Made by a program: the position numbers and the translations under genes. DNA of 64,000 nt. It comes from an uncultured Agathobacter sp. GTDB lineage: Bacteria; Bacillota; Clostridia; Lachnospirales; Lachnospiraceae. The DNA is taken from contig CAKRNE010000007.1 of assembly GCA_934365945.1 (NCBI GenBank), forward strand, positions 27,407 through 91,406, read 5' to 3'. Positions 16,106 to 45,744 of the stretch are shown here, one piece after another. The notes beneath the pieces are model-generated. The model did no database searches, was not told the origin of the DNA, and saw only the letters and a program-made list of their open reading frames with translations. How positions within the stretch are numbered: position 1 is the first letter of the stretch; each line of letters opens with the position of its first letter.

Positions 16106-16132
16106 ATTTTCACCCCTTATCGCCACTTCCGT

Positions 16133-29927: not shown

Positions 29928-30563
29928 CTACTGTTCATCCACATATGGTATTATTTCCGTAAACACCTCCGCGGCAACAGGAGCGGCAATGGTACCTCCG
30001 TAGTATACTCCTCCTTTTGGATTATTTATTTTGACAAGCACCATCAGCCTTGGGTCATCTGCCGGATAAAATCCAAGAAACGATGCAATATAGACATTAT
30101 CACTGCGTGGAAGTGTCTGCGATGTAGCGGTCTTTCCACCTATTGCATACCCTTCTACCTGTGCGTTTTTGCCTGAGCCCTCAGATACCACTCCTTCAAG
30201 AAGCTTTCTGAGAGTCTTAGAGGTCTCCTGTGTACAAATACCGCTTTTTGTATCAAAAGACACCTGTTTTTTTGTGGTGCCATCGGGATTCAATATTTCT
30301 TTGCCTATATGCGGTGTCACCCTGTTTCCTCCATTTATCAGGGAGGATACTGTGGTCATAAGCTCTATCGGTGTAATCTGAAATGACTGTCCAAATGAAA
30401 TTGTTGCAAGCTCCACCTGTCCTATCTTGTCAGGCTGATGCATTATAGTACCTGCCTCTCCCGGCAGATCTATCCCTGTTTTTTCCAGCAGGCAAAAGCT
30501 TTTAAATTTCTCATAATACCTGTCACAGCCTATGCGCAGTCCAAGGTCTATGAATACAGGATT
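29928..30563 (-). pseudogene. spoVD: spoVD-like PBP gene, 3' portion (severed by the element)
   Basis: 212 codons that continue the PBP gene interrupted at 44699-44701. Read from the junction: NPVFIDLGLRIGCDRYY, then EKTGIDLPGEAGTIMHQPD, FGQSFQITPIELMTTVSSLINGG and the third active-site motif, here KTA (GGKTATSQT) in place of KTG. No start codon or ribosome binding site serves it in the present configuration; an internal ATG at 30443 would make only a fragment without catalytic Ser. Joined to the 5' portion it gives a 559-residue class B PBP. It lacks the PASTA domain of Bacillus SpoVD. Likely silent unless the element excises. Confidence 0.85.
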
Positions 30564-30574
30564 GACAGTGTTAT
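30552..30574. other. Left attachment site (attL) of the intervening element
   Basis: On the plus strand TACAGGATT (gene side) meets GACAGTGTT (element side). The crossover dinucleotide is deduced as TT at 30562-30563 because only this placement restores the PBP reading frame and its conserved SCN motif when joined to the right junction, which reads TACTGGTTT at the same position. Confidence 0.75.
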
Positions 30575-30601
30575 CATTTTACCCCTTTTTTCACACCTAA
30601 A

Positions 30602-32482
30602 TTAACAGTCGGCTCCATTTTCCGTACGATTTACTATCCATATAGCAGTTTTAAAATCTAATTTCTTATGCTCCAACTTTCCCATTTCACGCAACTGTTT
30701 AACCGACGTGCATATGTAGCTGTATTTCATACCCAGCATTTTAGCACAATCTTTTACTTGTAGGTTAGGATTTTTTGAAAAAAGCTCTAAAACTTTCTCA
30801 TTGGTTTCTCGCCTTATTCTCTCTCTCTTTTGCTCCCTATGATATTCAAACTCTAAAGTAAATATATTTTTATCTATCATGTTAATCATTTCGCCTACAT
30901 TGTATAAACTTAATAATTCTACAAGCTTGTCTGTATCGAAAATGACTGTAACATGACCGCTCGGCTCTACCTCGATTTTTTCAATTATATTTTTTAATTG
31001 CATGGTAATTGCATCACGCTCTATTGTACCACTATGTATGACTTTCCGAATTTCCTCAAGTTTTGCCTTATATTCATTATATGACTGTCTCATACCTTTT
31101 AGAACATCTATTTTATCCTTAAGCTTATCTATTTCACATTGTAGCTTTTCATTATATTCTTTAAAGTCAGAATCATTTATTGTTCCATCGATTAATTTAT
31201 TAAACAGGATATCTTTTTTCCTTACTTGCAGTCTATGTTCCTCCTCTAAGTTGTTTAGAATACCCTCACTGGAGTTATCATTTAAAGCGATTTCAATATA
31301 TTTCATTGCTTTATCAATAATTCCAGTGTTCTTCCGAAACAACTGACTAAACTTCTCTTTTGCTTTCCTGTCAATCAACTCGCTTAGTACTGTTTCTTCT
31401 ATTATAATGTTATTGCATGCATTCTGTCCTAAATTCATCTTTTTTGAGCAGCGCCAATTTGTCAACTCATTAGGTGTCCCCTTTTTTACTATATAACGAT
31501 AGTAATAGCAATTACATGTTTTGCAGAATATTTTATGACTGTATAAATGTTTTCTGATGATTTTTCTGTCACCAGTAACATTTTTATACGACCTATCCTT
31601 AAGCATCTGTATTGTTTCTTCTTGATACTCTTTACTTACTATTGCAGGTAACGCATTATCATAGTATATCCACTCACTCTCTGGCACCTTTTCTCTTTGT
31701 TTTGTCCAAAAATTCATACTATCCTTATGCATTACCACTGTTCCATGCATCTTAGGATTGTATATGCATCCATTTTTCCACCATGTAGCCGATATCATTC
31801 TAGGCTCCATACTTTTTGTTCCAGATGTTCCCTTTGACCTATAGCCTTTTTCATACATATACTTTGCTAAACGATAAAATCCCATTCCTCCACGCACCAG
31901 CTCAAAGGCTTCTCTAATTGCGTCAGCTTCTTGTTCATTTATCTTGTATACATTTGTGTCCACCTTGTCCCATCCGAACATTTCTCGGCAAATATTAATA
32001 CCCGTTTTAAACTCCTGCCTCTTTGCATGTGCATCCTTTATTTTTTCTGAAAGCATTACACTCTGGAACTCATTGAATTTTGAAATCATACTATAAACCA
32101 TATGATCCTGCTCATGGTTATACAGTTTGCTATCTATGTAAAAGAATAATCTTTTACCAGTCTTTAACAACTCTCGTATGAATAAGTTCCACTCTAAATC
32201 ACTTCTCATTAATCTATCCTGTGATTTTACTACTACTAAATCGTAATCCATAGTTGATAAACTTGCATATAATTTTCTATACTCGTAGCGATGTTCTGAA
32301 CTGGTGCCTGATTTAGCTTCTACATATTGATGCACTATTATCCAATTACGTTTAATGCAATAATCTCTACTGTATTCTACCTGTCTCTCCAATGCATCCA
32401 CTTGCGCCAGTTCTTCTGTTGAGCATCTATTATAGATTACTACCCTTAATCGACTGTTTAAATCAATATTAGCATATGCCAT
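30602..32482 (-). CDS. Large serine recombinase
   Basis: 626 residues from the ATG at 32482, which has AGGAGG 10 nt upstream and follows the preceding gene by 4 bp; an in-frame ATG at 32509 lacks a site. The resolvase-type catalytic domain begins RVVIYNRCSTEE, where the Ser of CST is the nucleophile; VVKSQDRLMRSDLEW follows. Then come a recombinase domain, a zinc ribbon (CKTC...CSKK...NACNN, about 335-375), a coiled coil, and an unusual C-terminal winged-helix-like segment (about 565-610). It cuts and rejoins attL and attR. The stop lies 38 bp from the left junction, the position typical of recombinases acting on their own element. Confidence 0.92.
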   Translation of the reverse strand: MAYANIDLNSRLRVVIYNRCSTEELAQVDALERQVEYSRDYCIKRNWIIVHQYVEAKSGTSSEHRYEYRKLYASLSTMDYDLVVVKSQDRLMRSDLEWNLFIRELLKTGKRLFFYIDSKLYNHEQDHMVYSMISKFNEFQSVMLSEKIKDAHAKRQEFKTGINICREMFGWDKVDTNVYKINEQEADAIREAFELVRGGMGFYRLAKYMYEKGYRSKGTSGTKSMEPRMISATWWKNGCIYNPKMHGTVVMHKDSMNFWTKQREKVPESEWIYYDNALPAIVSKEYQEETIQMLKDRSYKNVTGDRKIIRKHLYSHKIFCKTCNCYYYRYIVKKGTPNELTNWRCSKKMNLGQNACNNIIIEETVLSELIDRKAKEKFSQLFRKNTGIIDKAMKYIEIALNDNSSEGILNNLEEEHRLQVRKKDILFNKLIDGTINDSDFKEYNEKLQCEIDKLKDKIDVLKGMRQSYNEYKAKLEEIRKVIHSGTIERDAITMQLKNIIEKIEVEPSGHVTVIFDTDKLVELLSLYNVGEMINMIDKNIFTLEFEYHREQKRERIRRETNEKVLELFSKNPNLQVKDCAKMLGMKYSYICTSVKQLREMGKLEHKKLDFKTAIWIVNRTENGADC

Positions 32483-32486
32483 ATCG

Positions 32487-32732
32487 TTACAACCTCCTAC
32501 CTTTGTCATTAGAAATTAAGTGCTTTACCTTAATTCCTTCTATTTCTGATAAATTACCAGCATTGACCAGCAAATCTATTATGTTTATTAACATTTCTGT
32601 TTCTGTTCCTAACTGGGTGTTGGATTGTAACGCTGTGTACTCGTAATGTCCAGACATTTTACTCAAAGTATTACCTACTTTATTTTCCTTGGTATTAACT
32701 TTATTATTATTGTTATCATTATATTCATCCAT
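32487..32732 (-). CDS. Small protein of unknown function coupled to the recombinase
   Basis: 81 residues from the ATG at 32732 (95 from an in-frame ATG at 32774 without a visible ribosome site). Asn-rich N-terminus (MDEYNDNNNNKVNTKENK) followed by a helical part with LGTETEMLINIIDLLVNAGNLSE. Its stop is 4 bp from the recombinase ATG and overlaps that gene's ribosome site, so the two are coupled. No family recognised. Size and position would fit a directionality factor or a regulator of the recombinase, but this is only a guess from context. Confidence 0.55.
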   Translation of the reverse strand: MDEYNDNNNNKVNTKENKVGNTLSKMSGHYEYTALQSNTQLGTETEMLINIIDLLVNAGNLSEIEGIKVKHLISNDKGRRL

Positions 32733-32733
32733 G

Positions 32734-32761
32734 CGATACAAAAATCCTTTCTTTTGTATCG
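32734..32761 (-). promoter_or_regulatory. Hairpin with a Shine-Dalgarno-like loop upstream of the coupled gene
   Basis: Perfect 10-bp inverted repeat CGATACAAAA / TTTTGTATCG. On the minus strand the 8-nt loop reads GAAAGGAT, a ribosome binding site; the ATG at 32732 starts directly after the stem. It could control translation of the small gene and the recombinase, or act as an operator. Confidence 0.6.
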
Positions 32762-32841
32762 TTATCCTTTTCATTTATTTCACAGCTTAGCAATGCGCAA
32801 ACATATGCTAAACCGTGAAATTTGTTGTTTAGTCTTTTCTC

Positions 32842-33207
32842 TTAAGAAGAAAAGGTAAACACTTTCTTCTTTTCTGTCGTGTCAGTCAAGAACTCTTTCT
32901 TGACCTCATCCATAGCAGACTGTATTGCACTCATCATCTCATTGACTTGTTCTGCTGAGTATGTATAATACTTTTTGTTTGACAGCTTCTTCATATCATC
33001 TATTGATGATATGATTTTAGATGTCTGTGCCTCTGCCCTTTCTATGAAACGCAGTGCCTTTACATCTGTTGTTATATTGTCCAGCGCAGGTGTATGCTGT
33101 GCTGTTGCCATTGCCGGGGCTGTTGCTGTCTGCTGTGTTACTTGTGTCTGCGCACCAATTATAGGTGCTTGATTACTTACAAAACTTTCCATTTTGTTTT
33201 CCTCCAT
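32842..33207 (-). CDS. Unknown element protein, 121 residues
   Basis: Soluble protein. Residues 1-45 are Gln/Thr/Ala-rich and probably disordered (QTQVTQQTATAPAMATAQ); residues 50-121 are predicted helical with charged repeats (RFIERAEAQTSKIISSIDDMKKL). GGAGG lies upstream of the ATG. No family recognised. It is the first gene of a likely operon with the coupled small protein and recombinase. Confidence 0.6.
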   Translation of the reverse strand: MEENKMESFVSNQAPIIGAQTQVTQQTATAPAMATAQHTPALDNITTDVKALRFIERAEAQTSKIISSIDDMKKLSNKKYYTYSAEQVNEMMSAIQSAMDEVKKEFLTDTTEKKKVFTFSS

Positions 33208-33898
33208 AGATTTGTTTTATTTATACTGCTTTTCTCTTGTTGCTGTAGGTACCTTACACTTGCAATATACCACCAAAATGGCAAAATATAAACAAAAGTG
33301 AGTGTAGAAAAAATCTGCTCTGTTTGCTTCATTCTACACACTTAAAATTCACAAAAAACAAATGTCATAAACCACTTAAGTATAAGTGTATGCACATTTT
33401 TCATGATGAGTCTATTGTGCAATTTGACGAACACCAAAAAAAATAGCTGCAATTTTCTTTGATATATCTGCTCTGAAATAGAAAATTGCATCAGAGTAAA
33501 CTTCTAATGCAATCATCTGAATTTTTTACTATGCAATTTTGAATCGGTAACTATTTGGGTTATTTTTTGAATTATTTGCTGGTGGTGTTTATTTACTGTT
33601 TTAACAGGGCATTTATGCTATGGTAATTATAGGTACATTTTATCTCACTATCTATTTATTCTCCCAAACTGCTATTTTTTTATTGTTTTCAAGCCGATTT
33701 TTTCTAAAAAATAAAAACTTTGAAAAAATCTTTATATACTTTTCTCAAATTTTCAATATTTTTATTTCTATCATTTTTTTCATATTTTCAATATTTTTGA
33801 TTGTCACATCCATTGATATAAAAATTTCCAATGCATACACCCTGTCAACCAGTCTTAAAAATGCATACTTATTTTTTAAGGAAATTGATAATGCTGGA
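33208..33898. other. AT-rich non-coding stretch of the element
   Basis: Very AT-rich. Contains inverted repeats CACTTA/TAAGTG near 33373 and GCAATTTTCT/AGAAAATTGC near 33452-33490, and a possible minus-strand promoter for the recombinase operon (TATATT at 33269-33264 with an ATATT-type -35 near 33286). A plus-strand reading frame at 33620-33928 is not convincing. The repeats make this a candidate replication origin or regulatory region; no iterons were seen. Confidence 0.45.
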
Positions 33899-33932
33899 CA
33901 AAAAGAAAAGACACCACATTTTCTGTGATGCC
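33899..33932 (-). terminator. Terminator after the small paralogue pair
   Basis: On the minus strand GGCATCACA-GAAAA-TGTGGTGTC (nine pairs including two G-U) is followed by TTTTCTTTTTG, 21 bp beyond the stop at 33953. Confidence 0.8.
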
Positions 33933-33952
33933 TTGCTGTTATCGAATATTGT

Positions 33953-34144
33953 TTAGCTGTGAAGTGCCTTGCGTAAACGTTTCCTATATGCCTGTTCTAT
34001 TTCATCATAAAACTCTACATCCGCCCTCCAGTCTCCATCCATTGGCAGCTCTGCCATTAATACTGTTCTAGGATGTCCATCTGGATAAACCATATTTACA
34101 CCCATTATGTTACGCTCACGTATACTCTTAAATCTTATCTGCAT
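33953..34144 (-). CDS. Small element protein, paralogue A
   Basis: 63 residues starting MQIRFKS and containing ELPMDGDWRADVEFYDEIEQAY. The GDWRAD-x-E-x-YD-x(4)-AY-x(2)-R-x(2)-K-x-LH pattern is shared with the next gene upstream, so the two arose by duplication. No known family recognised. Probably a soluble, partly helical protein. A strong terminator follows. Confidence 0.6.
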   Translation of the reverse strand: MQIRFKSIRERNIMGVNMVYPDGHPRTVLMAELPMDGDWRADVEFYDEIEQAYRKRLRKALHS

Positions 34145-34171
34145 AGCTCATGCCCTCCATTGTAATTGTTA

Positions 34172-34360
34172 TCAGTGTAATGTCTTTTCCCAGCGTTCCT
34201 CATATGCCGCCAGTACCTTATCGTAACACTCCATGTCTGCTCTCCAATCGCCATTGTCTGGTAACAGCATTGTAATGACCTCTTTTTCCTTAGCTGTTGG
34301 AATCGACATTAAGATGACCACTTTGTTGTTTTCCTTATGTCCTCTTAGTCTTATCTGCAT
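34172..34360 (-). CDS. Small element protein, paralogue B
   Basis: 62 residues, starting MQIRLRGHKENNKVV and sharing with its neighbour LP-x(2)-GDWRAD-x-E-x-YD and a C-terminal KxLH. The N-terminal half contains a short beta-like hydrophobic run (KVVILMSIP). Function unknown. The 27-bp gap to the paralogue contains its ribosome site, so both are co-transcribed, downstream of the Rep-like gene and separated from it by a terminator. Confidence 0.6.
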   Translation of the reverse strand: MQIRLRGHKENNKVVILMSIPTAKEKEVITMLLPDNGDWRADMECYDKVLAAYEERWEKTLH

Positions 34361-34464
34361 AACTCATGCCCTCCTGCACTTTAATTTCTTTTATTTTATT
34401 TCATATCTATGTATTGTGCGAGGTGTAGCACACTGTAAGGAGTTTTTACTTTGCAGGTAATATA

Positions 34465-34494
34465 AAATGCAGTCCCTCTGCTTGGACTGCATTT
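34465..34494 (-). terminator. Terminator of the Rep-like gene
   Basis: Perfect 11-bp stem AAATGCAGTCC / GGACTGCATTT with an 8-nt loop, then TATATT; 8 bp beyond the stop codon at 34502. Confidence 0.8.
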
Positions 34495-34501
34495 ATTCTT
34501 A

Positions 34502-35428
34502 CTACTTTGTTTTAACTTTTTCTGTTGCTGGCAGCAGGGGTGCAAACCTGTCTGAAAAATCTGCCGATGATGTTAAGTGCGTATAAACTCCATCCCAGCT
34601 CTCATATCCAGCCTGTTCAAGTGCTGTTGTAAGTTCCCTGTCTGGTATGTGATACTCTGACACCTCGCCTGTCTGCTCGTTCACTGTCTGACCTTTTACT
34701 CCCAGATGATTTCTCGTTTCATACAGTATCTTTCTATCAGTACTTGCAACACGCTCAAAAGCCTCTGCAAATTCATCCTCTTGGTCAGCGTGCCATGAAT
34801 CTATTACAATGTCACGCTCACAATTCTTTGAATATAAAAAACCTCTTTTGCCCTTTAATTCACCCGATGCATCATTCATGTTATCTATTAAGTATTGTAC
34901 AGCTGTCCTATAGCCATCCATTGACTTAATCTCAGTAACATAAGTAAACCCATTCTTCCAAAGATTCTGTATTATATTATTACTTATGTCGTTTTGGAAG
35001 TTGCACATTACATGGTAGTGCCAGTTTCCATTTGTCTGCCTGTTAAATGTCGCAAGATACTTAAAATTATCATAATGCGAACATACCCTCTGGATAAATT
35101 TCTTAAACTCATAATGCGACTGTACCAGATCACTGCATATGCTGCTGTCAAGTTTTGTACTGTCATAAGTCAGTGTAATCATTACGACTTTTGGAATATC
35201 AAAACTGTTATAACATATCTCACGTATTGTGCTCCTTCGGTTCTTCATACGATTATGATAATTAAACCCTGCATAATCACTTGGTATTGTAGGTTTTATC
35301 TTTTTCTGCTTATCGCTCTTTATCGGCTTTGTTGTATGTAACCGCATATTTTCATATGTAGTTACCCTTGTACGCTTTCTGCTGATTTTTATTTTATATC
35401 CATTTTCTATGTATTCTGCTCCACTCAT
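34502..35428 (-). CDS. rep: HUH-family replication initiator (Rep-like)
   Basis: 308 residues. Three ordered motifs of rolling-circle initiators are visible: motif 1 VVMITLTYDS near residue 82, the metal-binding HUH motif NWHYHVMCNF near 130, and a downstream tyrosine region AVQYLIDNM near 177. The usual Lys after the catalytic Tyr (YxxK) is not obvious. It would nick an origin and start rolling-circle replication of the excised circle. C-terminal residues 215-308 are unrecognised. GGAGG-like AGGTAAAATATG precedes the start. Good family call; activity uncertain. Confidence 0.72.
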   Translation of the reverse strand: MSGAEYIENGYKIKISRKRTRVTTYENMRLHTTKPIKSDKQKKIKPTIPSDYAGFNYHNRMKNRRSTIREICYNSFDIPKVVMITLTYDSTKLDSSICSDLVQSHYEFKKFIQRVCSHYDNFKYLATFNRQTNGNWHYHVMCNFQNDISNNIIQNLWKNGFTYVTEIKSMDGYRTAVQYLIDNMNDASGELKGKRGFLYSKNCERDIVIDSWHADQEDEFAEAFERVASTDRKILYETRNHLGVKGQTVNEQTGEVSEYHIPDRELTTALEQAGYESWDGVYTHLTSSADFSDRFAPLLPATEKVKTK

Positions 35429-35622
35429 ATTTTACCTCCCATATATACCCAAATTATATCAGATAAACATATCTGACGATATTGGTATTTTAAACATTTT
35501 TCATATTGAAATAAAGGATTTGATTGTGTCATATTTTTTTCTTGAAATGCATTTTTGAAATTTTCAATATTTTTGAAATGAGTGAGATATGACTTGATTC
35601 TTAAATAATATGTTTTAGAAGA
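35429..35622. other. AT-rich gap between Rep-like and secreted protein genes
   Basis: No gene. Contains poly-T/A runs and repeated TGAAATTTTC-like words near 35540-35580. A location for the Rep-like promoter; no clear nick site was recognised. Confidence 0.4.
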
Positions 35623-37026
35623 TTAAACCATGAGGACATATAAATTATCATTGTCACCAATGGTTATGACTGATGAGGATGTACCTTGCTGGGTGACACT
35701 GCCTATTGAATTAAAGTCTCTCTTGCTATTCAATGAATGCGATTTTGATGATGCCTTCCAACCTTCGAGGACATAGCCTGATTCATTATCTACACTGATA
35801 TAATTCGTGGTTTTTGAGCGACTAAACTTATGCTTATCTTTCTCTGCCTCCGCTATCGTGCCATCGGGATTTAATACCTCTGTATAATATAACTTCTTTA
35901 TCGTACACTTTCCATCTTTTGGTGGGTCTGGGTTCTCTGTATTGCCTGGGGTTGAACCACCATATGTATGAATGGGAGGGAGGGAAAAACCTGTAATGTC
36001 GATGGAGGCTATTGCTACACCATCACTCGCTATCTCTGATGAACTACTTATACGATGTACTTTACTACTTACTGCTGGATAAACCACCTTTGAACCACCC
36101 GTACTCGTACCATTAAATGTTGGTACCTCTAAATCATGCTCTAAGCATAGACTATATGGTAACTGAGTGTTGTAGAACTTATAGGTGTATTCTCCTCCAC
36201 CTGTTCCACCTACTCTATTTGATTCTCCTAATAATTGATATGCTGTTCCAAAATGTACCCTTGGATACCAATAATTATTATTTGTTGCTCCATCTGGCAT
36301 TGGGTCACCTGCGCTCCATGACTTGCCTGTTGCATCTGTTACGTCATTCGCAAATGTATTGTTGGTATACATATAATTGATTGAGACTGGCTCTACTACT
36401 GCATGCCATTTTGTATCGGGTTTGGCTAATGCCTCAAGCGCTTTTGCTCCACTAGCACCAGTATCTAGTACGTATGATGCCCATCTTGGTAATGGCATTT
36501 CACAACCTTTAATTTTTATCTTTTTACCACTATCCTGCATTAAGTATGCCATAGATTGTGAACCTGTGGCTTGCCAGCCATTCGTATATGTTACTGGGGT
36601 GATTCCTTGCACATATTTGTAAGTACCTATGTCTCCAAGTGATACTGATGTTTTTGGTCTTAGATGTCGATATGCTGCTATTCCTTTTGTTCCACCTAAA
36701 CCAGTAGTTTTGTAATCACCATACTTAATCGTGCCTGCTTCCTCCAAGAGGATTGCTTTACACTGTGTTGCTCCTCTTTCATCTACTACATATAACATGA
36801 TTCCACTTCGCTCACCAGATGCAGCCCAATATAGGTAGCTGGCTTGCTCGTTTGATGACTCATCGGTTTCATTACTACTGTATGAACTAAGGTTCATCAC
36901 TTGACCTATGCTGACGTCATCATCCGCATATGCTTGGAGTGGATTAAACATGAATATCGCTATGAAAAATATAAACACTGCTATTGCTTTTATTACGTTT
37001 CGCTTGATTAAAATTCGCTTTTCCAT
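35623..37026 (-). CDS. Secreted protein of unknown function
   Basis: 467 residues. Cleavable signal peptide: basic start MEKRILIKRNVIK, hydrophobic core, and cleavage after LQAYA near residue 34. The exported part is Tyr/Gly/Ser-rich with a central region VAYLMQDSGKK-type (SMAYLMQDSGKKIKIKGC) and a C-terminal beta-rich module ending SVITIGDNDNLYVLMV. No sortase or transmembrane anchor is visible. The end is abrupt, so it may be shortened relative to larger relatives. No function assigned. Confidence 0.6.
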   Translation of the reverse strand: MEKRILIKRNVIKAIAVFIFFIAIFMFNPLQAYADDDVSIGQVMNLSSYSSNETDESSNEQASYLYWAASGERSGIMLYVVDERGATQCKAILLEEAGTIKYGDYKTTGLGGTKGIAAYRHLRPKTSVSLGDIGTYKYVQGITPVTYTNGWQATGSQSMAYLMQDSGKKIKIKGCEMPLPRWASYVLDTGASGAKALEALAKPDTKWHAVVEPVSINYMYTNNTFANDVTDATGKSWSAGDPMPDGATNNNYWYPRVHFGTAYQLLGESNRVGGTGGGEYTYKFYNTQLPYSLCLEHDLEVPTFNGTSTGGSKVVYPAVSSKVHRISSSSEIASDGVAIASIDITGFSLPPIHTYGGSTPGNTENPDPPKDGKCTIKKLYYTEVLNPDGTIAEAEKDKHKFSRSKTTNYISVDNESGYVLEGWKASSKSHSLNSKRDFNSIGSVTQQGTSSSVITIGDNDNLYVLMV

Positions 37027-37083
37027 GTTGCTCCTACCTTTCTTAAAAATTGTAAATTTTTAATTTATATTTTTAGTAAGGTA

Positions 37084-37165: not shown

Positions 37166-39343
37166 TTATTTTGATTGCTGTTGTAACTGTCTGTTGATGT
37201 AGTTTGCTTCATAGTCTTGTTGTGTATACTTTTGTTTACTCGGCTCTGTATTTGTTGGTTTACTCGACTCTGTATCCATGGATTTTACTGTACCTTCTAT
37301 GTATTCTATTTCATCATCCGTGAGGTTGTACTTTTTATAAAGCTTTTTATCTATGTCTGCTATGGACTGCGACCAGTCGATGTCTGAGGAGGATGTAAAG
37401 TCTTGAAGTGGCACTAAACTAAATCTATATGCACTTACAGCTATTACTCCATCCTCTGAAAAACACCTTACTAAGAATCTAAATAGTTTCGTCTTAATAT
37501 ATTTTTCTACTGCTTTTGTTTCATTCAGATTGTCAGATGCAAACAATACACCCCAAGATGATGAACATACTGTATTTGGATTAGCAAGTTTTATATTGTT
37601 TATGATATTATTATCTTTGGTTAGTATCCTTCCACATATGACTTTATATTTAGGTGCCAACTCTGCCCTTGCAGGAACATCATTTATATTTATATACTTT
37701 ACATAAGGTTTCTTTTGTTCATTCATATATATTACGGCAATATTATTTTTTTCTGACCTTTCATTATAAGTTTTCAAGTCATATGCACTTTCTCCACGTC
37801 CTACTCTTCCGTTTGTAGTTATTCTAAATGGCTCTGATGGATATGTCTTAATACTAAAGTCTTCATTTTTACTTATTTTAGAAAACCTATTTACTATCTG
37901 CTGTTCAATTTTATTTGATGCTATTATCCTTGCACCTCTTAGGTTTTCATCATAATTTTCGATAACCTTACCTTTTTTAATCTCGGTATAATGTGTTTTA
38001 TCTCTATACCCTTTTTGTACTCCAAATATTGTTACCGCTGCACCTATGTTATTAAATATTTCTCCAGCTTCAGAATAGTTGACTATATTAGTTAACCCCA
38101 TATTAATCATATTGTTCCTAGTTGCTTTCAATGTATCAGATACTAACCAATTATTCTTTACTATCATAGTGATAGCATCTGGTTTTAATCCGATTGCTGA
38201 ATCTATAAATTCATTGTAGATTGATTTTGTTTTCTGCTGATATGGTGGATTTCCTATTATGACATTAAACTTCATATTCTTATCCTCTATATTAAACTTA
38301 GTCTTTAAATATTCCTCAAATGTATTTTCTTTTATTCCAAGTATATGTAACTTTTCTTTTGCATTTAATATCTTAGTTTTAGGCTGATTATCAGATGAAA
38401 TGATATTAAAATTTTTCATTATATCATTAAGTTGTATGTATGGCTCATCAATTTTAATGATATTTGACTTATTCATTAAGTTCTTAGTTGTTAACTCATA
38501 TGACTTATCTGATAATACTACTCCATATAATTGTTTTGATACTATATGTAATGTCCGTGCTACTGTATTCTCATATTCTGTTCCTTTATATAAATCAGAC
38601 GCTAACAACCTATTAAGTACTGCTTTTAAAAACTCTCCAGATGTACTAGATAAATCTAAAAAAGTTGTATATGGATTCCATATATTTTTCGGAAGTAAAT
38701 CTAGTGTCTGTTCAACTATATTCTTAGGAGTCTGTACTTCAGTTACTGATTCAGATTGCTTATCTACTATTCTTTTTCCACTCTGCTTTAGTTCTTCTTC
38801 TCCGTACCCAAGTCTAGGTACTTCTTTAACAGCCTCTTGCTTCTTATCTTTTTTAAATACATCTTCTTTTAAAATGAAATTAACAAATTCCTTGATGTAT
38901 TCAACTTTGTTTTTTATTGACTCATAAGTGTATCGTTTAGTATCTGGCTCTGTATTATTAAGTCTAACACTATCTAATAAAGAGTGATAAAAGTAATTCT
39001 CAAGATTTCTCATTTCATCAAAGCCTAAATCTTTAAATTTAATTGCTATCGCGTTATCCCACTTTTCTCTATATCTTTCTGATGTACTTGTTTTATGTTG
39101 ATATAACCTCGTAAATACAGGAGTGTTATTCATAGTTTCAGAAGACCTACCTACATAAACCTCTAGTTTTCCATCCTCTGTTTCACCATATAGAAAATAT
39201 ATAGAATGACCTTCTATACCTAAGCTATTGTATTTATCATCTTTAATTTGCTTTCTTGCAATCTTATATGCTTCAATATTCCAATCTTTATTATAATATC
39301 TTGTTATATCCCTATAGGCTGTGTCTTCACTTTGTATACCCAT
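37166..39343 (-). CDS. GIY-YIG nuclease-like domain fused to Eco57I-type DNA methyltransferase
   Basis: 725 residues. Residues 45-135 resemble a GIY-YIG endonuclease: SIYFLYGE, then VYVGRSSE with the conserved Arg, RLYQHK, and Glu in MRNLENYFYH. Residues 205-440 form an N6-adenine methyltransferase: AdoMet motif FLDLSSTSGEFLKA near 225 and catalytic NVIIGNPPYQQ (NPPY) near 359. A C-terminal region (450-690) could be the target-recognition part, and the last 35 residues are low-complexity Ser/Thr/Glu/Pro. This suggests a single-chain restriction-modification enzyme protecting the element or host; cleavage is inferred. Markedly AT-rich coding. Confidence 0.75.
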   Translation of the reverse strand: MGIQSEDTAYRDITRYYNKDWNIEAYKIARKQIKDDKYNSLGIEGHSIYFLYGETEDGKLEVYVGRSSETMNNTPVFTRLYQHKTSTSERYREKWDNAIAIKFKDLGFDEMRNLENYFYHSLLDSVRLNNTEPDTKRYTYESIKNKVEYIKEFVNFILKEDVFKKDKKQEAVKEVPRLGYGEEELKQSGKRIVDKQSESVTEVQTPKNIVEQTLDLLPKNIWNPYTTFLDLSSTSGEFLKAVLNRLLASDLYKGTEYENTVARTLHIVSKQLYGVVLSDKSYELTTKNLMNKSNIIKIDEPYIQLNDIMKNFNIISSDNQPKTKILNAKEKLHILGIKENTFEEYLKTKFNIEDKNMKFNVIIGNPPYQQKTKSIYNEFIDSAIGLKPDAITMIVKNNWLVSDTLKATRNNMINMGLTNIVNYSEAGEIFNNIGAAVTIFGVQKGYRDKTHYTEIKKGKVIENYDENLRGARIIASNKIEQQIVNRFSKISKNEDFSIKTYPSEPFRITTNGRVGRGESAYDLKTYNERSEKNNIAVIYMNEQKKPYVKYININDVPARAELAPKYKVICGRILTKDNNIINNIKLANPNTVCSSSWGVLFASDNLNETKAVEKYIKTKLFRFLVRCFSEDGVIAVSAYRFSLVPLQDFTSSSDIDWSQSIADIDKKLYKKYNLTDDEIEYIEGTVKSMDTESSKPTNTEPSKQKYTQQDYEANYINRQLQQQSK

Positions 39344-39368
39344 GTTGTTTTCACCTCCTAATATGTTG

Positions 39369-39393
39369 AATGGGAACCACTAGGGTTCCCATT
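39369..39393. other. Short perfect hairpin between lipoprotein and methyltransferase genes
   Basis: AATGGGAACC / GGTTCCCATT with a 5-nt loop, lacking a clear T tract on either strand. Could be a weak terminator or mRNA processing site between 39343 and 39433. Confidence 0.45.
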
Positions 39394-39432
39394 GTTATAA
39401 TGAATGTAATTTAGTGTTACTGATTAATTATT

Positions 39433-41001
39433 TTAATTATTGCTGCTGTTTTCTTCCCATGCATCTAAGTCATAAACTGTTTCGCCACTCTCGTTTGTAT
39501 ATGAAGGAACATTGTACTCTTTCATTTTCTTATCAATCTCATTATCTAAGATGGCTGCATACTCTTCCATTGTTCCACATAACTGATTACCATCTGGCAG
39601 GTAGTCTCCTACGTGAAAGACTTTACCATAATCCGGAGAACCCTCTTTCATATAAACCGCATATGATGGCTGATCTCCTGCACCCTCTCCATGTATATAA
39701 ATCCATGTCCAACCTGACATGCCATCAGCACCTTGAGATGCAGCATATTGCCCATATTGATGGACTGCATCCCATGAACCATTGATGTCTGCCCATTTTG
39801 AATTTCTTATCTCTTCCTCTTCTTTGTTCACATTGCTGTTTTCACTGCTATCACTTGATTCACTACTGTCGGAACTTTCATCACTACTGTTGTTTGCTAT
39901 TGTTGATGGGTCGATGTAATCACTGTAGAGTTGGTAGGTGTTGTTGGCATTGGTTGCCATTGTTGTAAACAACTCAAGTGCATCTGCTTTTGTAAGTGCT
40001 GAGTCCCAATCACTTAATGTGTCCTCTGTTAAATATCCATTCGCTATTGCTACTTTAAAGGTGTTGTACAGGTCTGTTGGAACTCCTTTGTCTGCATCAT
40101 TGATTGCTTTCTGATACTTGATGTCTCCTGCATCCTTTACTGTCGTAATTGATACACTCGATGTATCTGAATAATTATCTACATATCCATTTGCCTCTAT
40201 CTCTGCTAAATAATTAGCTCTAAGATAATTAGTTACTAATGCTATGTATTCACCCTTTGTCATGGTGCTGCTGAATGACTTCTCATTTAAACCATTTGAA
40301 GTGTTGATGTAGCTGTATTCATCCATTGGTGCCGCGAAGTTTGTATATGTTGTTTCACCTACCTTATCCGTGAAATCTTTGTTCTCTTCTGGTGCCTGTG
40401 CTTCATTTACCTGTGTTGTTGCTCTCATTACAAGTGCCATTGCCTGTGCTCTGCTGATTGTTGAATCACCATCAAATTTTCCATCCTCTTGGTCTGGAAG
40501 TAACTCAAAGTATGAATTAATGACTGCGTAAGGTGCTTCTGGACTGTCTTTTTCTACATCTGTATAAGCATCTCCTACAAGCTCTCCTATTTCCACCATG
40601 TATCCCTCTGATGAAAGATACTGCGATATTGCTGAGTTCTGTGTTGCCATAAGATATGTTACATTTTGCTCTGCTGTCTGCGTTGCTGGATTGTAGTACA
40701 ATGTACCCTCTTTGTTTCCTGTCTTGCCAGTTATGTTGAAATACTTTTCAAATGCTGAACGCAGTTCTGTATGTGTCTCAAGTGATGATAATTGAAGCCA
40801 TGGCAACAACTCCACTTTTGACTCCTCCCCACTATCATAGTTTGGTACTGCATACTCTATCTCAATCTCCGAGGCTTGCTGACTCATATCCTTTGCCTCT
40901 TTTTTAGAGCACGCTGATACTCCAAACAACATACTGCTTATCAGTATAAGTGTTAATGTTGGAATGACTATCTTTTTGACTTTCATGTATTTACCACTCA
41001 T
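39433..41001 (-). CDS. Lipoprotein with S-layer-homology-like domains
   Basis: 522 residues, ATG with AGGAGG 9 nt upstream. Signal peptide with lipobox FGVSAC; Cys near residue 31 would be lipidated by the Lgt enzyme encoded at 49.9 kb. Residues 170-330 contain SLH-like units (STISRAQAMALVMRATT and ALTKADALELFTTMATNA), then a Ser/Asp/Glu-rich linker and a unique C-terminal domain. It sits on the cell surface; role unknown. The only surface-anchored protein of the element. Confidence 0.68.
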   Translation of the reverse strand: MSGKYMKVKKIVIPTLTLILISSMLFGVSACSKKEAKDMSQQASEIEIEYAVPNYDSGEESKVELLPWLQLSSLETHTELRSAFEKYFNITGKTGNKEGTLYYNPATQTAEQNVTYLMATQNSAISQYLSSEGYMVEIGELVGDAYTDVEKDSPEAPYAVINSYFELLPDQEDGKFDGDSTISRAQAMALVMRATTQVNEAQAPEENKDFTDKVGETTYTNFAAPMDEYSYINTSNGLNEKSFSSTMTKGEYIALVTNYLRANYLAEIEANGYVDNYSDTSSVSITTVKDAGDIKYQKAINDADKGVPTDLYNTFKVAIANGYLTEDTLSDWDSALTKADALELFTTMATNANNTYQLYSDYIDPSTIANNSSDESSDSSESSDSSENSNVNKEEEEIRNSKWADINGSWDAVHQYGQYAASQGADGMSGWTWIYIHGEGAGDQPSYAVYMKEGSPDYGKVFHVGDYLPDGNQLCGTMEEYAAILDNEIDKKMKEYNVPSYTNESGETVYDLDAWEENSSNN

Positions 41002-41127
41002 TTTGGTGTTCCTCCTTTAAACTATAATGCTTTGATAATGCGTGAGGGCATCTTGCGATGCCCCCAAACTTAAAATTTTTTAAAAAATTATTTTTATTTC
41101 TTTTTATTGAAATGCTGTTACTTATGT

Positions 41128-41604
41128 CTATATCAGAATACCCGCTGTTCTTAGTAAAAGTATAACAGCAGATTCCACACAGGTCTGCAAAGCAGTTGTT
41201 CCTATGCATTTTATAACCGCTTTCACTTTCTTACCAAAATCCTTATTGACTCCTTTAAACTCTTTTGCGCTTAATAACTTATTACCTTTTTCGCTTATTC
41301 TTATATCATCAAATGTACATGATGAAAAATCTATTGCATCTGTTGACTCTTCCTCAAAAGTATCTGGGTCCATCTTTATTTCATATTTGAGTACTACTGT
41401 ACCATCTATGCAGCCTTTGTTTTTTAACGCTTCTATCGTTTTACAAACCATTTCTGCAAAGCCTGTATTTGCTTCAGCAGGAAATAAATCCTCATTTAAT
41501 ACCTCTTCAAATGTTTTATTATTTTTCTCTGCATAAACTATACATTCCTTTACAATACATAATACAAGTAATTCCTGCTCTTTTTCTGTTAATTGTATGC
41601 CCAT
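41128..41604 (-). CDS. Unknown element protein divergent from the XRE regulator
   Basis: 158 residues. Residues 1-115 are alternating helices and strands with EKGNKLLSAKEFKGVNKDFGKKV, resembling a winged-helix-like regulatory or effector fold. The C-terminal 35 residues are hydrophobic (CVESAVILLLRTAGILI), so membrane association is possible. GGAGG-like site present. No family recognised. Divergently arranged with an XRE regulator over a 119-bp region containing an inverted repeat, which suggests control by that repressor. Confidence 0.55.
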   Translation of the reverse strand: MGIQLTEKEQELLVLCIVKECIVYAEKNNKTFEEVLNEDLFPAEANTGFAEMVCKTIEALKNKGCIDGTVVLKYEIKMDPDTFEEESTDAIDFSSCTFDDIRISEKGNKLLSAKEFKGVNKDFGKKVKAVIKCIGTTALQTCVESAVILLLRTAGILI

Positions 41605-41640
41605 AATTTTCCTCCATTGCTGTTTATTCGTGATAGTAGC

Positions 41641-41723
41641 ATTTTACTACTTTTAGTCGTATTTGACAACCCATTGTAGCATACAACTATATAAAATCTG
41701 TTTACATATATGGAGGTCTGGCT
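41641..41723. promoter_or_regulatory. Divergent regulatory region with candidate XRE operator
   Basis: Inverted repeat AGTAG-N7-CTACT (41636-41652) lies between the divergent starts. TTGACA at 41664 heads a plausible plus-strand promoter for the XRE gene (-10 within TATATAAA). Operator assignment is inferred from symmetry and position. Confidence 0.4.
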
Positions 41724-42020
41724 ATGCTTGAAAATTTAGGTGATAAACTCAAAACTTTACGTGTTAATAATCAGCTTACAAGGAAACAAGTCGCTGAATT
41801 GATTGGTGTGTCAGTAAGTACCATTGGTCTGTATGAAAGTAATGAACGACTTCCATCAATCCCTGTTCTTGTAAAATTGGCTAGTCAATACAAGACCTCT
41901 GTCGATTATCTTCTTAATATTGATACAAGCAATAAAAGCGCCCTTTCCCTTGATGGATTGACTGATAAACAGATAAAAGCCTTAAAAATGACTGCTGAAT
42001 GTTTTCGTAATTCTAATTGA
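41724..42020 (+). CDS. XRE-family helix-turn-helix regulator
   Basis: 98 residues. An HTH_3 domain fills residues 5-60: LGDKLKTLRVNNQLTRKQVAELIGVS then STIGLYESNERLPSIPVLVKLA, the classic XRE pattern. A short C-terminal helix follows. GGAGG is 8 nt upstream of ATG. It is the only clear plus-strand gene of the element and probably represses it or the divergent gene. Overlaps by 8 bp, tail to tail, with the next minus-strand gene. Confidence 0.88.
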   Translation: MLENLGDKLKTLRVNNQLTRKQVAELIGVSVSTIGLYESNERLPSIPVLVKLASQYKTSVDYLLNIDTSNKSALSLDGLTDKQIKALKMTAECFRNSN

Positions 42021-42246
42021 TGAGTTTTATCAGTTCTAAATGTGATTTCAATATCTTTTCTACGATAGATACAGTTCTGATTGTATGCTCGTCATCTTCA
42101 TTTGCTGATAACTCTACTTCAAGCAGTTGCAAAATATTTATTGCATCCCTTGTCTGTTCCTCTAGGTTTTCTTTTAAAGCCTCATGCTCAATGTTATCGG
42201 ATAGTTGTAGCGATTGATTGTTTGAGGTGTTTGTAATAGTAACCAT
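42013..42246 (-). CDS. Small helical element protein
   Basis: 77 residues, AAGGAGG 8 nt before ATG. A polar N-terminus is followed by a mostly helical, possibly coiled-coil region (LEEQTRDAINILQLLEVEL and VEKILKSHLELIKLIN). No family recognised. A hairpin terminator separates it from the upstream resolvase; its own promoter should lie at 42260-42320. Confidence 0.55.
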   Translation of the reverse strand: MVTITNTSNNQSLQLSDNIEHEALKENLEEQTRDAINILQLLEVELSANEDDEHTIRTVSIVEKILKSHLELIKLIN

Positions 42247-42597
42247 GGTAGCTGTCCTCCTTCCTATAAGTTGGATGAGATAATAACGCTTGAAATAGGG
42301 AAATTCAAGGTATTTTGATAGTGAAAAATCGGTAGCGCGATACTTCCGATTTTTACTAAAAAATTTTTAATCCTAATGCATCTATATATTTTTGCCCCTA
42401 TGCATTACTAGGAAATTCACCCATGCAGACACCAATCGTTCTGGAGTCGGACTGAAATTTTTACTCCAGATGAAAAATCAATAATTAAGAATTAGTATTT
42501 TTAATTATTGCAGGAACTACTTTTGATGCATTTGTAATGTTATATAAATTTTATTAATGCTGGGAGTGCGATGCAACACACATAATAATTTGATGCA
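42247..42597. other. Non-coding region between resolvase and small protein
   Basis: 350 bp without a gene. Holds a terminator (42320-42354), an inverted repeat CTGGAGT/ACTCCAG near 42441-42469, an AT-rich palindromic stretch near 42480-42515, and several TGCAT words. The resolvase might bind a res-like site here; none can be defined by eye. Confidence 0.45.
42320..42354 (-). terminator. Terminator downstream of the small resolvase
   Basis: Stem AAAAATCGG / CCGATTTTT with a 13-nt loop; the T run forms part of the stem on the minus strand. About 245 bp beyond the resolvase stop. Confidence 0.6.
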
Positions 42598-43281
42598 TCA
42601 ATCGTTTTTAATCTTATGTTTGTTTGACTGATAATTCGGGTAGAATACCTTAAACCATTTCCAATAAACATAGTCTTTTAAGCCAAGGTTATGCATAGCC
42701 TCTTTATGCGTGATATATCGTGCGATTGCCCTGTCTGCCTGCTGTCGGAACTGCTTTTCATCTACCTTTATTGCTTCACGTCCAAATCTGACACCTTTTG
42801 CGCGCGCCTCGGCAATTCCCTCTCGTGTACGTTTTTCCTTATAATGCAGCTCCTGCTCTGCCCAGTAGGATTTTAACAGTATTACTATATCTATCAAAAG
42901 TTCACCAGTTATTCCCATTGACTCATTGAACAATTCTTCGGGTATATCCAAAAACCTCAATGTAACACCATGCTTTCTAAACCAGTAAACCTCATTTTGT
43001 ATCTCTCTGTAATCCCTGCCTATCCTGTCCAGCTCATGCACAGTTAATCGGATTGGTGTGTCAGCATTAGCTTCTTTCAACTCTATTATTTTTTCCTTAA
43101 GTTTTGTATACTCTGGTCTGTTAAATTCTTTACCTGTATACTTATCCTCAAAAAAGTATCTCGCTTTAAGCTCTGGTATCGCCTCAAATATAGCTGTTTC
43201 CTGTCTCTCCAAATTCTGTGACTTGCTCGACACCCGTGCATATGCCATTTCAGTGTATTGTATTTCTCGTGTGTGCTCCAT
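42598..43281 (-). CDS. Small serine recombinase (resolvase/invertase family)
   Basis: 227 residues. Catalytic domain residues 8-150: MAYARVSSKSQNLERQE (Ser of VSS is the nucleophile), LTVHELDRIGRDYREI, and GELLIDIVILLKSYWAEQE (helix E start). The C-terminal part (about 185-227) should be a DNA-binding helix-turn-helix but is divergent. It could resolve multimers of the circular form or invert a segment. It is distinct from the large recombinase at the left end. Typical of plasmid maintenance. Confidence 0.88.
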   Translation of the reverse strand: MEHTREIQYTEMAYARVSSKSQNLERQETAIFEAIPELKARYFFEDKYTGKEFNRPEYTKLKEKIIELKEANADTPIRLTVHELDRIGRDYREIQNEVYWFRKHGVTLRFLDIPEELFNESMGITGELLIDIVILLKSYWAEQELHYKEKRTREGIAEARAKGVRFGREAIKVDEKQFRQQADRAIARYITHKEAMHNLGLKDYVYWKWFKVFYPNYQSNKHKIKND

Positions 43282-43425
43282 GCCTTTTTCTCCTTATCTA
43301 TACTGCAAACCCTACTTTTTCAGACAGCCCCATTTTTTAGGAATTTTTGTCCGAAAAACTATCAAAAATAAAAAACAAATATTTGATTAAATATAATACC
43401 TTTGTCAGATAACTGGCATATTCAC

Positions 43426-43467
43426 AAAAATGTACTGTCTATCCTAATTGAATAAACAGTACATTTT
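43426..43467 (-). terminator. Terminator of the DUF3846 gene
   Basis: Perfect stem AAAATGTACTGT / ACAGTACATTTT with an 18-nt loop, followed by TTGTG on the minus strand; 17 bp beyond the stop at 43484. Confidence 0.75.
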
Positions 43468-43483
43468 CTAAATTCAAGTCGAT

Positions 43484-43834
43484 TTATAGTAGTCCAAAGT
43501 AGTTTAGCAATACTGCCTTGAATAATGCTTCTTCGGAGATTGGTTTTACTTTGGAATTTATGAGTTCTAAATCTTCATCCGTTATGCTCTTAAAATTCCC
43601 CTGCCTGTCGTGTCTGCAAATAAAGCAGTCACCTGCTATGATTGTTTCTAACTCACGTATCATTACCCTAGGCTCTAATCCAACCAACCAGCCTTCTTCA
43701 TTACAGACTAAGTCTATTTCTTCTGTAAGGGCAGTGCACTCTATAAGTCCACCGACAAACTCCTGTTCTGCCTGTAGCGTATTTTCTATATCCATGAAAC
43801 CTTGTTCATCTTTCTTAAATCCATATACTCTCAT
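43484..43834 (-). CDS. DUF3846 domain protein
   Basis: 116 residues. The middle matches DUF3846: an early TLQAEQEFVGGLIECTAL, then IDLVCNEEGWLVGLEPR and AGDCFICRHD. These small proteins are common on plasmids, phages and conjugative elements and are of unknown function. AAGGAG site upstream. Supports plasmid-like origin. It follows the 179-residue protein in the same direction. Confidence 0.75.
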   Translation of the reverse strand: MRVYGFKKDEQGFMDIENTLQAEQEFVGGLIECTALTEEIDLVCNEEGWLVGLEPRVMIRELETIIAGDCFICRHDRQGNFKSITDEDLELINSKVKPISEEALFKAVLLNYFGLL

Positions 43835-43892
43835 AATGTGCTCCTTATAATAAATGTGGCAGGTGCTCTGTTTGCACCTGCCGTTTACTGAG

Positions 43893-44432
43893 TTACTTTG
43901 TTTGGTTTTCTATTGCTGTTGTTTTCTCACTCTTTTTATCTGCTGACTGCTCTGGTTTTGACTGCTTTGATTTTTCCAGTGAAGCTACGATTATTTTATC
44001 GTCCTGTATTTTTGCTCCACCACTGACTATATGCATATCAAGTAATGTTTTCACTTTTTCCTCTGTGAAGCTTGTTCGCTCATATCGTGATGAAATCACA
44101 TCATACATTGTAGTGCCTTTATCTTTATGAGTTCCTATCACAATATAAAACAGGTTCGCTAAACAATCATCCTCGACCATTGGAATCAATGTATTTGTAT
44201 GAACCTTTTTCATCATGTTTGTTACAAAGAAATTCTCTGTATCAAGCTCCAACTCACCAGCCTCTGTTATTTTCATGCCATAAACCTCATCCGATGTAAT
44301 GCCCTTAAGCGCATCCTTTATCTGCTTTTCTGTCAGCTCCACGACCTCTCCTTTTGGTAAGCTGTAAGCCTCAAAACATATTGGTCTGCTTCCTAAAAAG
44401 ATCTCGTTTGTAATGATTAATTTTCTACACAT
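43893..44432 (-). CDS. Unknown element protein, 179 residues
   Basis: Start at 44432 chosen for AGGAGG 8 nt upstream; a second in-frame ATG at 44477 also has a GGAGG site and would add 15 polar residues, so a leader or alternative form is possible. The protein has alpha/beta character (CRKLIITNEIFLGSRPICFEA), a helical midsection, and a charged Lys/Ser/Gln-rich tail. No family recognised. It is the first gene inside the right end of the element. Confidence 0.55.
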   Translation of the reverse strand: MCRKLIITNEIFLGSRPICFEAYSLPKGEVVELTEKQIKDALKGITSDEVYGMKITEAGELELDTENFFVTNMMKKVHTNTLIPMVEDDCLANLFYIVIGTHKDKGTTMYDVISSRYERTSFTEEKVKTLLDMHIVSGGAKIQDDKIIVASLEKSKQSKPEQSADKKSEKTTAIENQTK

Positions 44433-44587
44433 ATCGTTTTCCTCCTGCATTTCGCATTTATTATTTTTTCTGGACATTTCTTTTTATGTCCTCCTTACAT
44501 TTAATACAATAACGCTGGGAAAACTGGATGTCAGTAGTGGGAATAGCCAGAGTTTTCATACTGAAATTAGAGATGTTGTAACAAATG

Positions 44588-44616
44588 CAAAAGGGCAGCG
44601 CCTATCGGCACTGCCC
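44588..44616 (-). terminator. Terminator at the right end of the element
   Basis: Stem GGGCAG-c-GCC / GGC-a-CTGCCC with TATC loop, followed on the minus strand by TTTTGCATTTG. It lies 83 bp inside the right junction and would stop transcripts entering from the spoVD 5' portion. Confidence 0.75.
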
Positions 44617-44667
44617 ATACTAATTAAACCTATTCAATTCCTTATTTTTCCCTTATGTTCCCTATTT

Positions 44668-45744
44668 TTATACTAGGTACGAAAGTATAGGTACTGGTTT
44701 ACATGAATTTTGTATCCCCTGCACAAAGGTTTCGCTGCCGTGACCACTCCTTTTATGACAGTGTATGCGCCTGTCCTCCACCGTAATATACCCGGGACAG
44801 TAAAAGCTGTCGTCCAGACTTACCACATTTTCTTCGAGTGCTATAGCGGCTGTGATGATTTTAAATGTCGATCCCGGCTCGTAAGTATCGCTGACGCAGC
44901 CGTTTCTCCAGGCCTCGTCATGATTTTCGCAGGAAAACGGGTCATTGAGATTGTACTCGGGATAGTCAGACATAGCATAGATTTCGCCATTCATAGGATT
45001 CATGACTATGATGCTCACACTGTCAGCAAGGTTTTCATTATATGCCTCAGCGGCCTTCTGCTCACAGATTCTTTGTATGTTTATATCCAGTGTTGTGACA
45101 AGTGTATCGCCCTTTTTTGGTGCCTGTCGTCTCTCCTTATAGCCCTTCACCTCCACACCTCTGCCATCACATACTGTATATATTTTTCCGGGTTTTCCGA
45201 AAAGGACATCATCATAAGTCGCTTCAAGTCCGACAACGCCCTGTCCATCAGCCCCTGAAAATCCAATAACCTTTGAAAACAGTTCATTTCCCGGATAGTA
45301 TCTGATGCTTGACTCATCTACCTTTACCCCGTCTAAACCATAGGAAAGTATTCTGTCACCGGTTTCCTTTGAAACATTGTTTTTTATTTTTTCTATTGAT
45401 GTGACCTTTTCCACCTTTTTGCGTATCTTCGATTCATCCATCGAAAGCTCTGTGCTCAGTGTCCTGATCACCGCCTCCTCATCAGTTATCTGATTGTGTA
45501 TCACTGAAATATTGCAGGCAGTCTCATTTGTCGCTATAACACTTCCGTTTCTGTCTAATATATCTCCTCGTATACCTGTTATCGCCCTCTCCCGCTCCTG
45601 CAGGGCACGGGCTTTTTTACTGTAATATTCTCCCTTTACAATAATAAGATAGCCCAGACGGACACATAATACCATAAGCATTATTGTCATCATCACACAT
45701 AGTGCACATATTTTCTTTCTATACCCGGTATTATTCAATATCAT
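44668..45744 (-). CDS. spoVD: spoVD-like class B PBP, 5' portion (severed by the element)
   Basis: 348 host-encoded residues followed by ten element-encoded residues (KPVPILSYLV) and a stop. N-terminal membrane helix (about 12-32), PBP dimerisation region, GVVGLEATYDDVLFGKPG, and the transpeptidase motif PGSTFK (SxxK) with the catalytic Ser near residue 294. FYCPGYITVEDRR and FVQGIQNSC end the host part one residue before the Asn of SxN. As it stands the enzyme lacks half of its transpeptidase domain. Joined to 30563-29928 it is in frame (559 residues). SpoVD makes spore cortex; the assignment to SpoVD over a vegetative PBP is based on sequence style and position. Confidence 0.85.
   Translation of the reverse strand: MILNNTGYRKKICALCVMMTIMLMVLCVRLGYLIIVKGEYYSKKARALQERERAITGIRGDILDRNGSVIATNETACNISVIHNQITDEEAVIRTLSTELSMDESKIRKKVEKVTSIEKIKNNVSKETGDRILSYGLDGVKVDESSIRYYPGNELFSKVIGFSGADGQGVVGLEATYDDVLFGKPGKIYTVCDGRGVEVKGYKERRQAPKKGDTLVTTLDINIQRICEQKAAEAYNENLADSVSIIVMNPMNGEIYAMSDYPEYNLNDPFSCENHDEAWRNGCVSDTYEPGSTFKIITAAIALEENVVSLDDSFYCPGYITVEDRRIHCHKRSGHGSETFVQGIQNSCKPVPILSYLV
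44689..44711. other. Right attachment site (attR) of the intervening element
   Basis: On the plus strand TACTGGTTT (element side) meets ACATGAATT (gene side); crossover TT at 44699-44700. It aligns with the left junction TACAGGATT, sharing seven of nine positions up to and including TT. Confidence 0.75.

Follow-up and report, generated by a model that had tools for sequence, protein, structure and literature searches.

A 64,000-nucleotide stretch of DNA from an uncultured Agathobacter sp. (contig CAKRNE010000007.1 of assembly GCA_934365945.1, positions 27,407 to 91,406; hereafter the window) carries the sporulation gene spoVD in two pieces, separated by an intervening element of 14,137 bp that encodes a large serine recombinase. 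The gene codes for a class B penicillin-binding protein (PBP), and it is established in Bacillus and Clostridioides that spoVD is needed in the mother cell for synthesis of the spore cortex. The element is probably excised by its own recombinase during sporulation, an event predicted to occur in the mother cell and to rebuild spoVD there, with the chromosome of the forespore keeping the element; we put the probability of this reading at roughly 80%. The system is of a known kind; what is new is spoVD as the target and the recurrent clade of recombinases that occupies it.

The interrupted gene and its junctions

Both parts of spoVD lie on the minus strand, at 45744-44701 and 30563-29928, and together make up 1680 nt, that is, 559 codons and a stop codon with no internal stops. 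All that the two sides of the junction have in common is AA at 44700-44699 and at 30563-30562, which reads TT on the plus strand. The core expected for a serine recombinase is 2 bp long and, because a 2-bp core is common to both sides, the element is delimited as 30564-44700. The break point falls within the codons for SxN, an active-site motif of the transpeptidase, where the joined gene reads NSC^NPVF, and the G+C content of the element is 34.8% versus 42.6% and 42.7% in its flanks. When recomputed from the window, the coordinates, the 14,137-bp gap, the shared TT and the single 559-codon frame given in an initial annotation of this DNA were all reproduced, as was its placing of the end of a large serine recombinase 38 bp from the left junction. 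The features concerned are as follows.

44701..45744, minus strand: spoVD 5' part, 348 codons ending in ...IQNSC; best NCBIfam match spoVD_pbp
29928..30563, minus strand: spoVD 3' part, starting NPVFIDLG...; the open reading frame at 29928-30443 has spoVD_pbp as best NCBIfam match
30564..44700, no strand: intervening element, 14,137 bp, absent from L001 (see below)
44699..44700, no strand: 2-bp core of the right junction, TT on plus, AA on minus
30562..30563, no strand: 2-bp core of the left junction, TT on plus, AA on minus
30602..32509, minus strand: large serine recombinase, 635 aa, Resolvase and Recombinase domains, YNRCS motif present; stop codon at 30602
32487..32774, minus strand: small gene of 95 aa, candidate recombination directionality factor, overlapping the recombinase start; no Pfam family

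Among solved structures, the joined protein is closest to 7rcz (Stage V sporulation protein D, presumably that of C. difficile) at 362 bits, against 185 bits for the best FtsI. Scored separately, the two pieces reach 318.6 and 174.2 bits, below the 688-bit cut-off of the NCBIfam spoVD model TIGR02214, as does the neighbouring PBP at 414.5 bits; the split PBP has no PASTA domain. Judged by the 7rcz match, the gene order (set out below) and the NCBIfam best match of both pieces, the split gene is the spoVD orthologue, in line with its earlier description as a spoVD-type PBP.

The predicted junction is found in nature. In a rumen Lachnospiraceae metagenome-assembled genome (MAG) of 95-96% nucleotide identity (ONHG01000007.1, locus L001), spoVD is uninterrupted, and 147 of 160 bases over the predicted junction are identical with no gap. 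Among the best 120 of 7,959 public protein matches, 22 proteins are exactly 559 aa long and 96-99% identical to the joined protein (4 mismatches at best), and residues 339-358 around the junction are identical in all 22. The initial annotation had suggested looking in related genomes for an uninterrupted gene; with L001 and these proteins such genes are in hand, their junction is as predicted and, together with the in-frame join, they bear out its claim that the split is precisely repairable. The in-frame join is not a matter of chance, as the same junction occurs in L001, in the natural 559-aa proteins and in the splits parsed from other genomes; a chance reading frame, considered as an explanation, was ruled out on these grounds.

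Recurrence of the split in other genomes

Counting the window, 18 splits were parsed, and in all of them the halves join in frame at NSC^NPV; a further genome (G755) provides a 19th. Besides the window, 20 records have a related recombinase beside a piece of spoVD. The closest relatives of the recombinase among 397 sampled genomes of the family are those of G071, G128 and G270 (38-39% identity), and all three adjoin a spoVD 3' part; in the same genomes the spoVD 5' part matched short frames in at least G071, G128, G270 and G233, the contig of the last ending about 340 bp beyond the break; among matches down to E 1.7e-112, this count of splits is a lower bound. In a sample of 392 genomes of the order, matches to a recombinase of this clade were detected at E 1e-90 in G270, in G755, where the gene also lies in spoVD, and in G546, where it does not. 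In a human faecal record, MT835561.1, which stops within the element, a recombinase of 79% identity adjoins a spoVD 3' part. This record was deposited as Bacteriophage sp. but is actually chromosomal DNA (spoVD 3' part and murD; L100, 26900-32232), and frames resembling a flavodoxin, an aldo/keto reductase, MerR, a cupin and a large permease were noted by eye in its element. No spoVD piece was present in the flanks examined of 27 further recombinase loci (L039-L065).

In phylogenetic trees, the 21 spoVD-adjacent recombinases form one clade versus 27 relatives sited elsewhere (100/100), in 200 of 200 bootstrap trees. This clean separation led us to reject the notion of a recombinase unspecific for spoVD. 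When 120 public proteins were added in a quick tree, 117 proteins whose location is unknown fell into the spoVD clade; the distant loci L058-L065, which have no spoVD piece, were left out of the careful trees but entered into the quick tree, from which L053, L059 and L060 dropped out by length. Recombinases outside the clade in L039, L040, L044, L056 and L164 end, by eye, beside an ABC (ATP-binding cassette)-transporter permease-like frame, which may be a preferred site of their own.

The genus of G270 is very likely Parablautia, since the recombinase of G463 equals P0108, which is named Parablautia muri. Among 37 genomes of this genus, 35 match the spoVD 5' part, comprising 17 with a split gene (378-432 codons), 17 with a whole gene (575-606 codons) and one partial case. 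A recombinase at least 51% identical to that of G270 occurs in 16 genomes, all of them split, and in 0 of the 17 with a full-length gene; in the 17th split genome, G487, the contig ends within the same ABC cargo. The Parablautia elements are 4.8-8.0 kb long, with a G+C content near that of their flanks. Three opposite-strand ABC-transporter genes were present in 13 of 13 elements parsed, the permease in 15 of 15, and all three also in G490; the binding protein has a tryptophan transporter protein as its best match, under the cut-off. The element of G464 has an extra frame between the ABC genes (L158, 2221-3433 of the element) that by eye resembles an IS110-type transposase. In other hosts, the cargo comprises a glycerol kinase gene with glycerol-3-phosphate oxidase-like genes (G071) or DnaK (G128), and the element of G755 is only about 3.5 kb long, with the recombinase, the small gene and one other-strand frame without assignment. 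With host-like metabolic genes or almost nothing as their content, the copies in Parablautia and these other genomes look domesticated.

Within one subclade (G466, G470, G472, G482, G468 and G497), the branching order is the same in the recombinase and spoVD trees, and silent divergence in the three closest pairs is 0.54-0.73 for the recombinase versus 0.38-0.77 for spoVD. Since the tree orders agree and the silent divergences are of the same order, the split was inherited in that subclade and so was kept through speciation.

Selection on the two halves and probable sporulation capacity of the hosts

In Parablautia, the median ratio of nonsynonymous to synonymous divergence (dN/dS) is 0.031 for the 5' part and 0.038 for the 3' part of split genes, and 0.045 and 0.058 for the corresponding parts of intact genes, with many pairs saturated. 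The sample comprised 15 of 17 split genomes (G490 and G487 omitted) and 9 of 17 intact ones (four omitted without a pattern match and four without a locus). Pairs with dS >= 3 were dropped, which retained 33 of 105 (5') and 104 of 105 (3') split pairs and, out of 36 intact ones, 9 for the 5' part and 32 for the 3' part. The ten closest of the 105 split pairs, taken by lowest dS, have a ratio of 0.019-0.040 for the 5' half, 0.000-0.048 for the 3' half and 0.072-0.132 for the recombinase. Both halves of spoVD in split Parablautia are thus under strong purifying selection and are constrained as they are in whole genes. This pattern agrees with a reversible split, one of the two possibilities raised in the initial annotation, and argues against permanent loss. 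Decay would be expected of a permanently broken gene, and excision therefore very likely rebuilds spoVD; in particular, the 3' half has neither a start codon nor the SxN motif and would hardly stay so constrained if it were never rejoined.

The hosts of split spoVD look able to sporulate, judging from their gene content. All 20 split genomes tested contain the SpoVAC/SpoVAEB family, as does MAG G001, the nearest relative of the window, and the overall figure is 37 of 38; Spo0A and SpoIIIAE are also present in G001. The Spo0A-like frame of G001 and of G417 has 185 codons, below most of the 60 genomes listed. In the open-access full-text literature, nothing was found linking Parablautia with spores.

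Proposed mechanism and alternative explanations

The recombinase would act on the two core-bearing junctions, and the small gene just upstream of it may supply directionality, as skr does for skin, the element in sigK; together the two proteins would join the core sites and release the element as a circle, by analogy with skin. Expression is presumably tied to the mother-cell programme, since that is where SpoVD is needed for cortex synthesis. Each of the 21 spoVD-adjacent recombinases is immediately preceded by a small gene. This gene is weakly conserved, matches no Pfam family and has similar counterparts before relatives sited elsewhere, and is for these reasons a candidate directionality factor only; a rough pattern for the small gene, not used as a homology count, occurred at 13 of 19 relatives elsewhere and 0 of 2 spoVD-sited loci. 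Upstream of the small gene, an ATATAYT box, which we take to resemble a sigma-E -10 element, was found in 15 of 16 Parablautia elements, compared with an average of 0.75 in single-base shuffles, the elements being related in sequence. A simple pattern search for a sigma-E promoter before the recombinase yielded a -10-like box only.

Several observations weigh against excision during sporulation. The nearest relative appears to lack the recombinase (the search answer was empty, and uncalibrated) and, with the recombinase missing there, its intact gene is an empty site and not a product of excision. No SpoIVA match was found in this genome, so sporulation of the window lineage is likely rather than proven. 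The window's small gene is not preceded by a promoter-like box of the Parablautia type, and a search of viral contigs for the predicted circle junction of the window element gave 0 exact matches. Descent in the family has not been vertical throughout, as the recombinase of G483 branches outside those of the rest of Parablautia, and G480 and G495, both split, cluster with intact species in the spoVD tree; because these three break the vertical pattern, losses or fresh gains must have occurred, and at least four changes between split and intact status are needed in Parablautia. Related recombinases are also found elsewhere in some Parablautia genomes (seven checked).

The initial annotation had itself offered a permanent insertion as an alternative, by which the element landed in spoVD by chance, leaving the window strain asporogenous and the halves as relics. 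For the family, this is disfavoured, given that the Parablautia halves are constrained over large divergence; for the window's copy alone, a dead insertion is possible because that element looks mobile and recently acquired, from its mobile-element genes, its low G+C content and its absence from the 95-96% identical relative. The lack of a SpoIVA match in G001 points the same way, as does the frequent loss of sporulation by rumen Firmicutes described in PMC8340488. On the other side stand the sigma factors and spoIIIA genes, intact in the window, and the window halves, which have neither a stop nor a frameshift and show dN/dS values of 0.06 (0.0169/0.288) and 0.09 (0.0199/0.211) against L001, figures that a recent insertion would match too. 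Overall, we consider a permanent insertion unlikely. Still less credit is due to a switch resembling phase variation, in which excision and integration would proceed in growing cells independently of sporulation and the status of spoVD would vary. Intact and split forms do exist side by side among close relatives, and for yin, the element in yabG, a fraction of the culture shows excision at any time (PMC10747680); but the number of element-free Parablautia genomes with a clade recombinase is zero, as would be expected if excised circles are permanently lost in growing cells, and random on/off switching of a gene used only in spores has no clear use. That an assembly chimera or a mixture of strains placed an unrelated element in spoVD is scarcely credible, considering that the core is exact and in frame, that a spoVD-clade recombinase sits at the junction and that 20 independent records show this arrangement too. 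Excision by the element's own recombinase during sporulation is the reading that we retain.

Content of the window's element and its chromosomal neighbourhood

Beyond the recombinase and the small gene, the following cargo was recognized in the window's element, where two tandem similar frames of 62-63 aa were also observed at 33953-34360.

34502..35428, minus strand: rolling-circle-type replication protein (REP_ORF2-G2P)
37166..39343, minus strand: Eco57I-type DNA methyltransferase
41724..42020, plus strand: helix-turn-helix regulator
42598..43281, minus strand: small resolvase/invertase
43484..43834, minus strand: DUF3846 protein

Comparison of 10 element proteins with PHROGs gave matches to integrase, replication, methyltransferase, invertase and unknown families alone, with no phage structural gene among them, and identity as a prophage was rejected on this basis. 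The replication protein has distant matches only, in phages and plasmids, and searches with the window recombinase in collections of genome contigs and viral contigs gave nothing useful.

The split gene belongs to a minus-strand division and cell-wall cluster consisting of mraZ, rsmH, a gene in the ftsL position, an intact class B PBP, the split PBP, murD and ftsW/spoVE, and continuing with a gene in the ftsQ position, ftsZ, spoIIGA and sigE; sigG lies further on and the spoIIIA operon follows. The position of the split PBP is what we take to be that of spoVD in Bacillus subtilis. In the window, murD directly follows spoVD (29843-29928) and mraY is missing; by eye, L096-L098 have mraY between the two.

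45801..47756, minus strand: intact class B PBP preceding spoVD, in the pbpB/ftsI position
24217..25065, minus strand: spoIIGA (Pfam over the cut-off, NCBIfam below)
23550..24284, minus strand: sigE (over the cut-off)
19056..19835, minus strand: sigG (over the NF006071 cut-off, below that of TIGR02850)
11586..16126, minus strand: spoIIIA operon (AA, AB, AC/AD, AE and AH recognized; AG-position protein below the cut-off)

Relation to known systems and implications

Intervening elements have been described in sigK, spsM, spoVFB, gerE and yabG (PMC10747680) and in spoVR, spoIVFB and kamA (PMC6957869). The spoVD element resembles skin in sigK of Bacillus subtilis and Clostridioides difficile, in that a gene of mother-cell sporulation is interrupted by an element with a large serine recombinase, and the junction is precisely repairable. 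A small directionality gene adjoins or overlaps the recombinase gene of skin, namely skr, which precedes and overlaps spoIVCA in B. subtilis (PMC6957869), and CD1234 in C. difficile (PMC5025042); here, the corresponding gene is a candidate. Unlike skin, the present element targets spoVD, has no recognized phage genes in the window and carries metabolic cargo elsewhere. The gin element in gerE of Bacillus cereus ATCC 10987 (PMC5595907) is likewise a non-phage island of low G+C content with restriction-modification genes and serine recombinases, located inside a sporulation gene and excised in sporulation, as is predicted here; it differs in target and host order, and has three recombinases in 28.6 kb, whereas some forms of the spoVD element are about 3.5-8 kb long, with recombinases of one clade. 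SP-beta in spsM and phi3T in kamA also combine a large serine recombinase with a directionality factor and have their genes rebuilt in sporulation but, unlike the spoVD element, are active prophages (PMC6957869, PMC5595907). The vfbin element in spoVFB and yin in yabG share the placement within sporulation genes and the serine recombinase; they are prophage-like, interrupt other genes and occur in few strains (PMC10747680), in contrast to a family that recurrently occupies one conserved codon. In the open-access full-text literature, in part judged by title and abstract, spoVD was not found as the target of an intervening element, serine recombinase or prophage. The initial annotation likewise named no known case of a PBP gene as such a target.

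On balance, we lean towards a broader view, in which spoVD of Lachnospiraceae is a standing target of programmed DNA splicing: one clade of recombinases would have repeatedly occupied the active-site codons, some elements would have become fixed developmental introns, and their cargo (transporters, glycerol metabolism, a chaperone) would be discarded from the mother cell when spoVD is rebuilt, amounting to a separation of germline and soma in bacteria that involves metabolic cargo. Few sporulation genes are known to be restored through DNA excision; the gene for the spore cortex transpeptidase would be added to them, and its hosts inhabit the gut and rumen and are not the usual models. The element family ranges from the mobile form in the window, through apparently domesticated forms with fixed metabolic cargo, to one that, at about 3.5 kb, contains little more than the recombinase. 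As intact and split species occur in one genus, the effect of such splits on a sporulating host becomes testable, and gene counts that score spoVD as broken or absent may misjudge the ability of a gut bacterium to sporulate.

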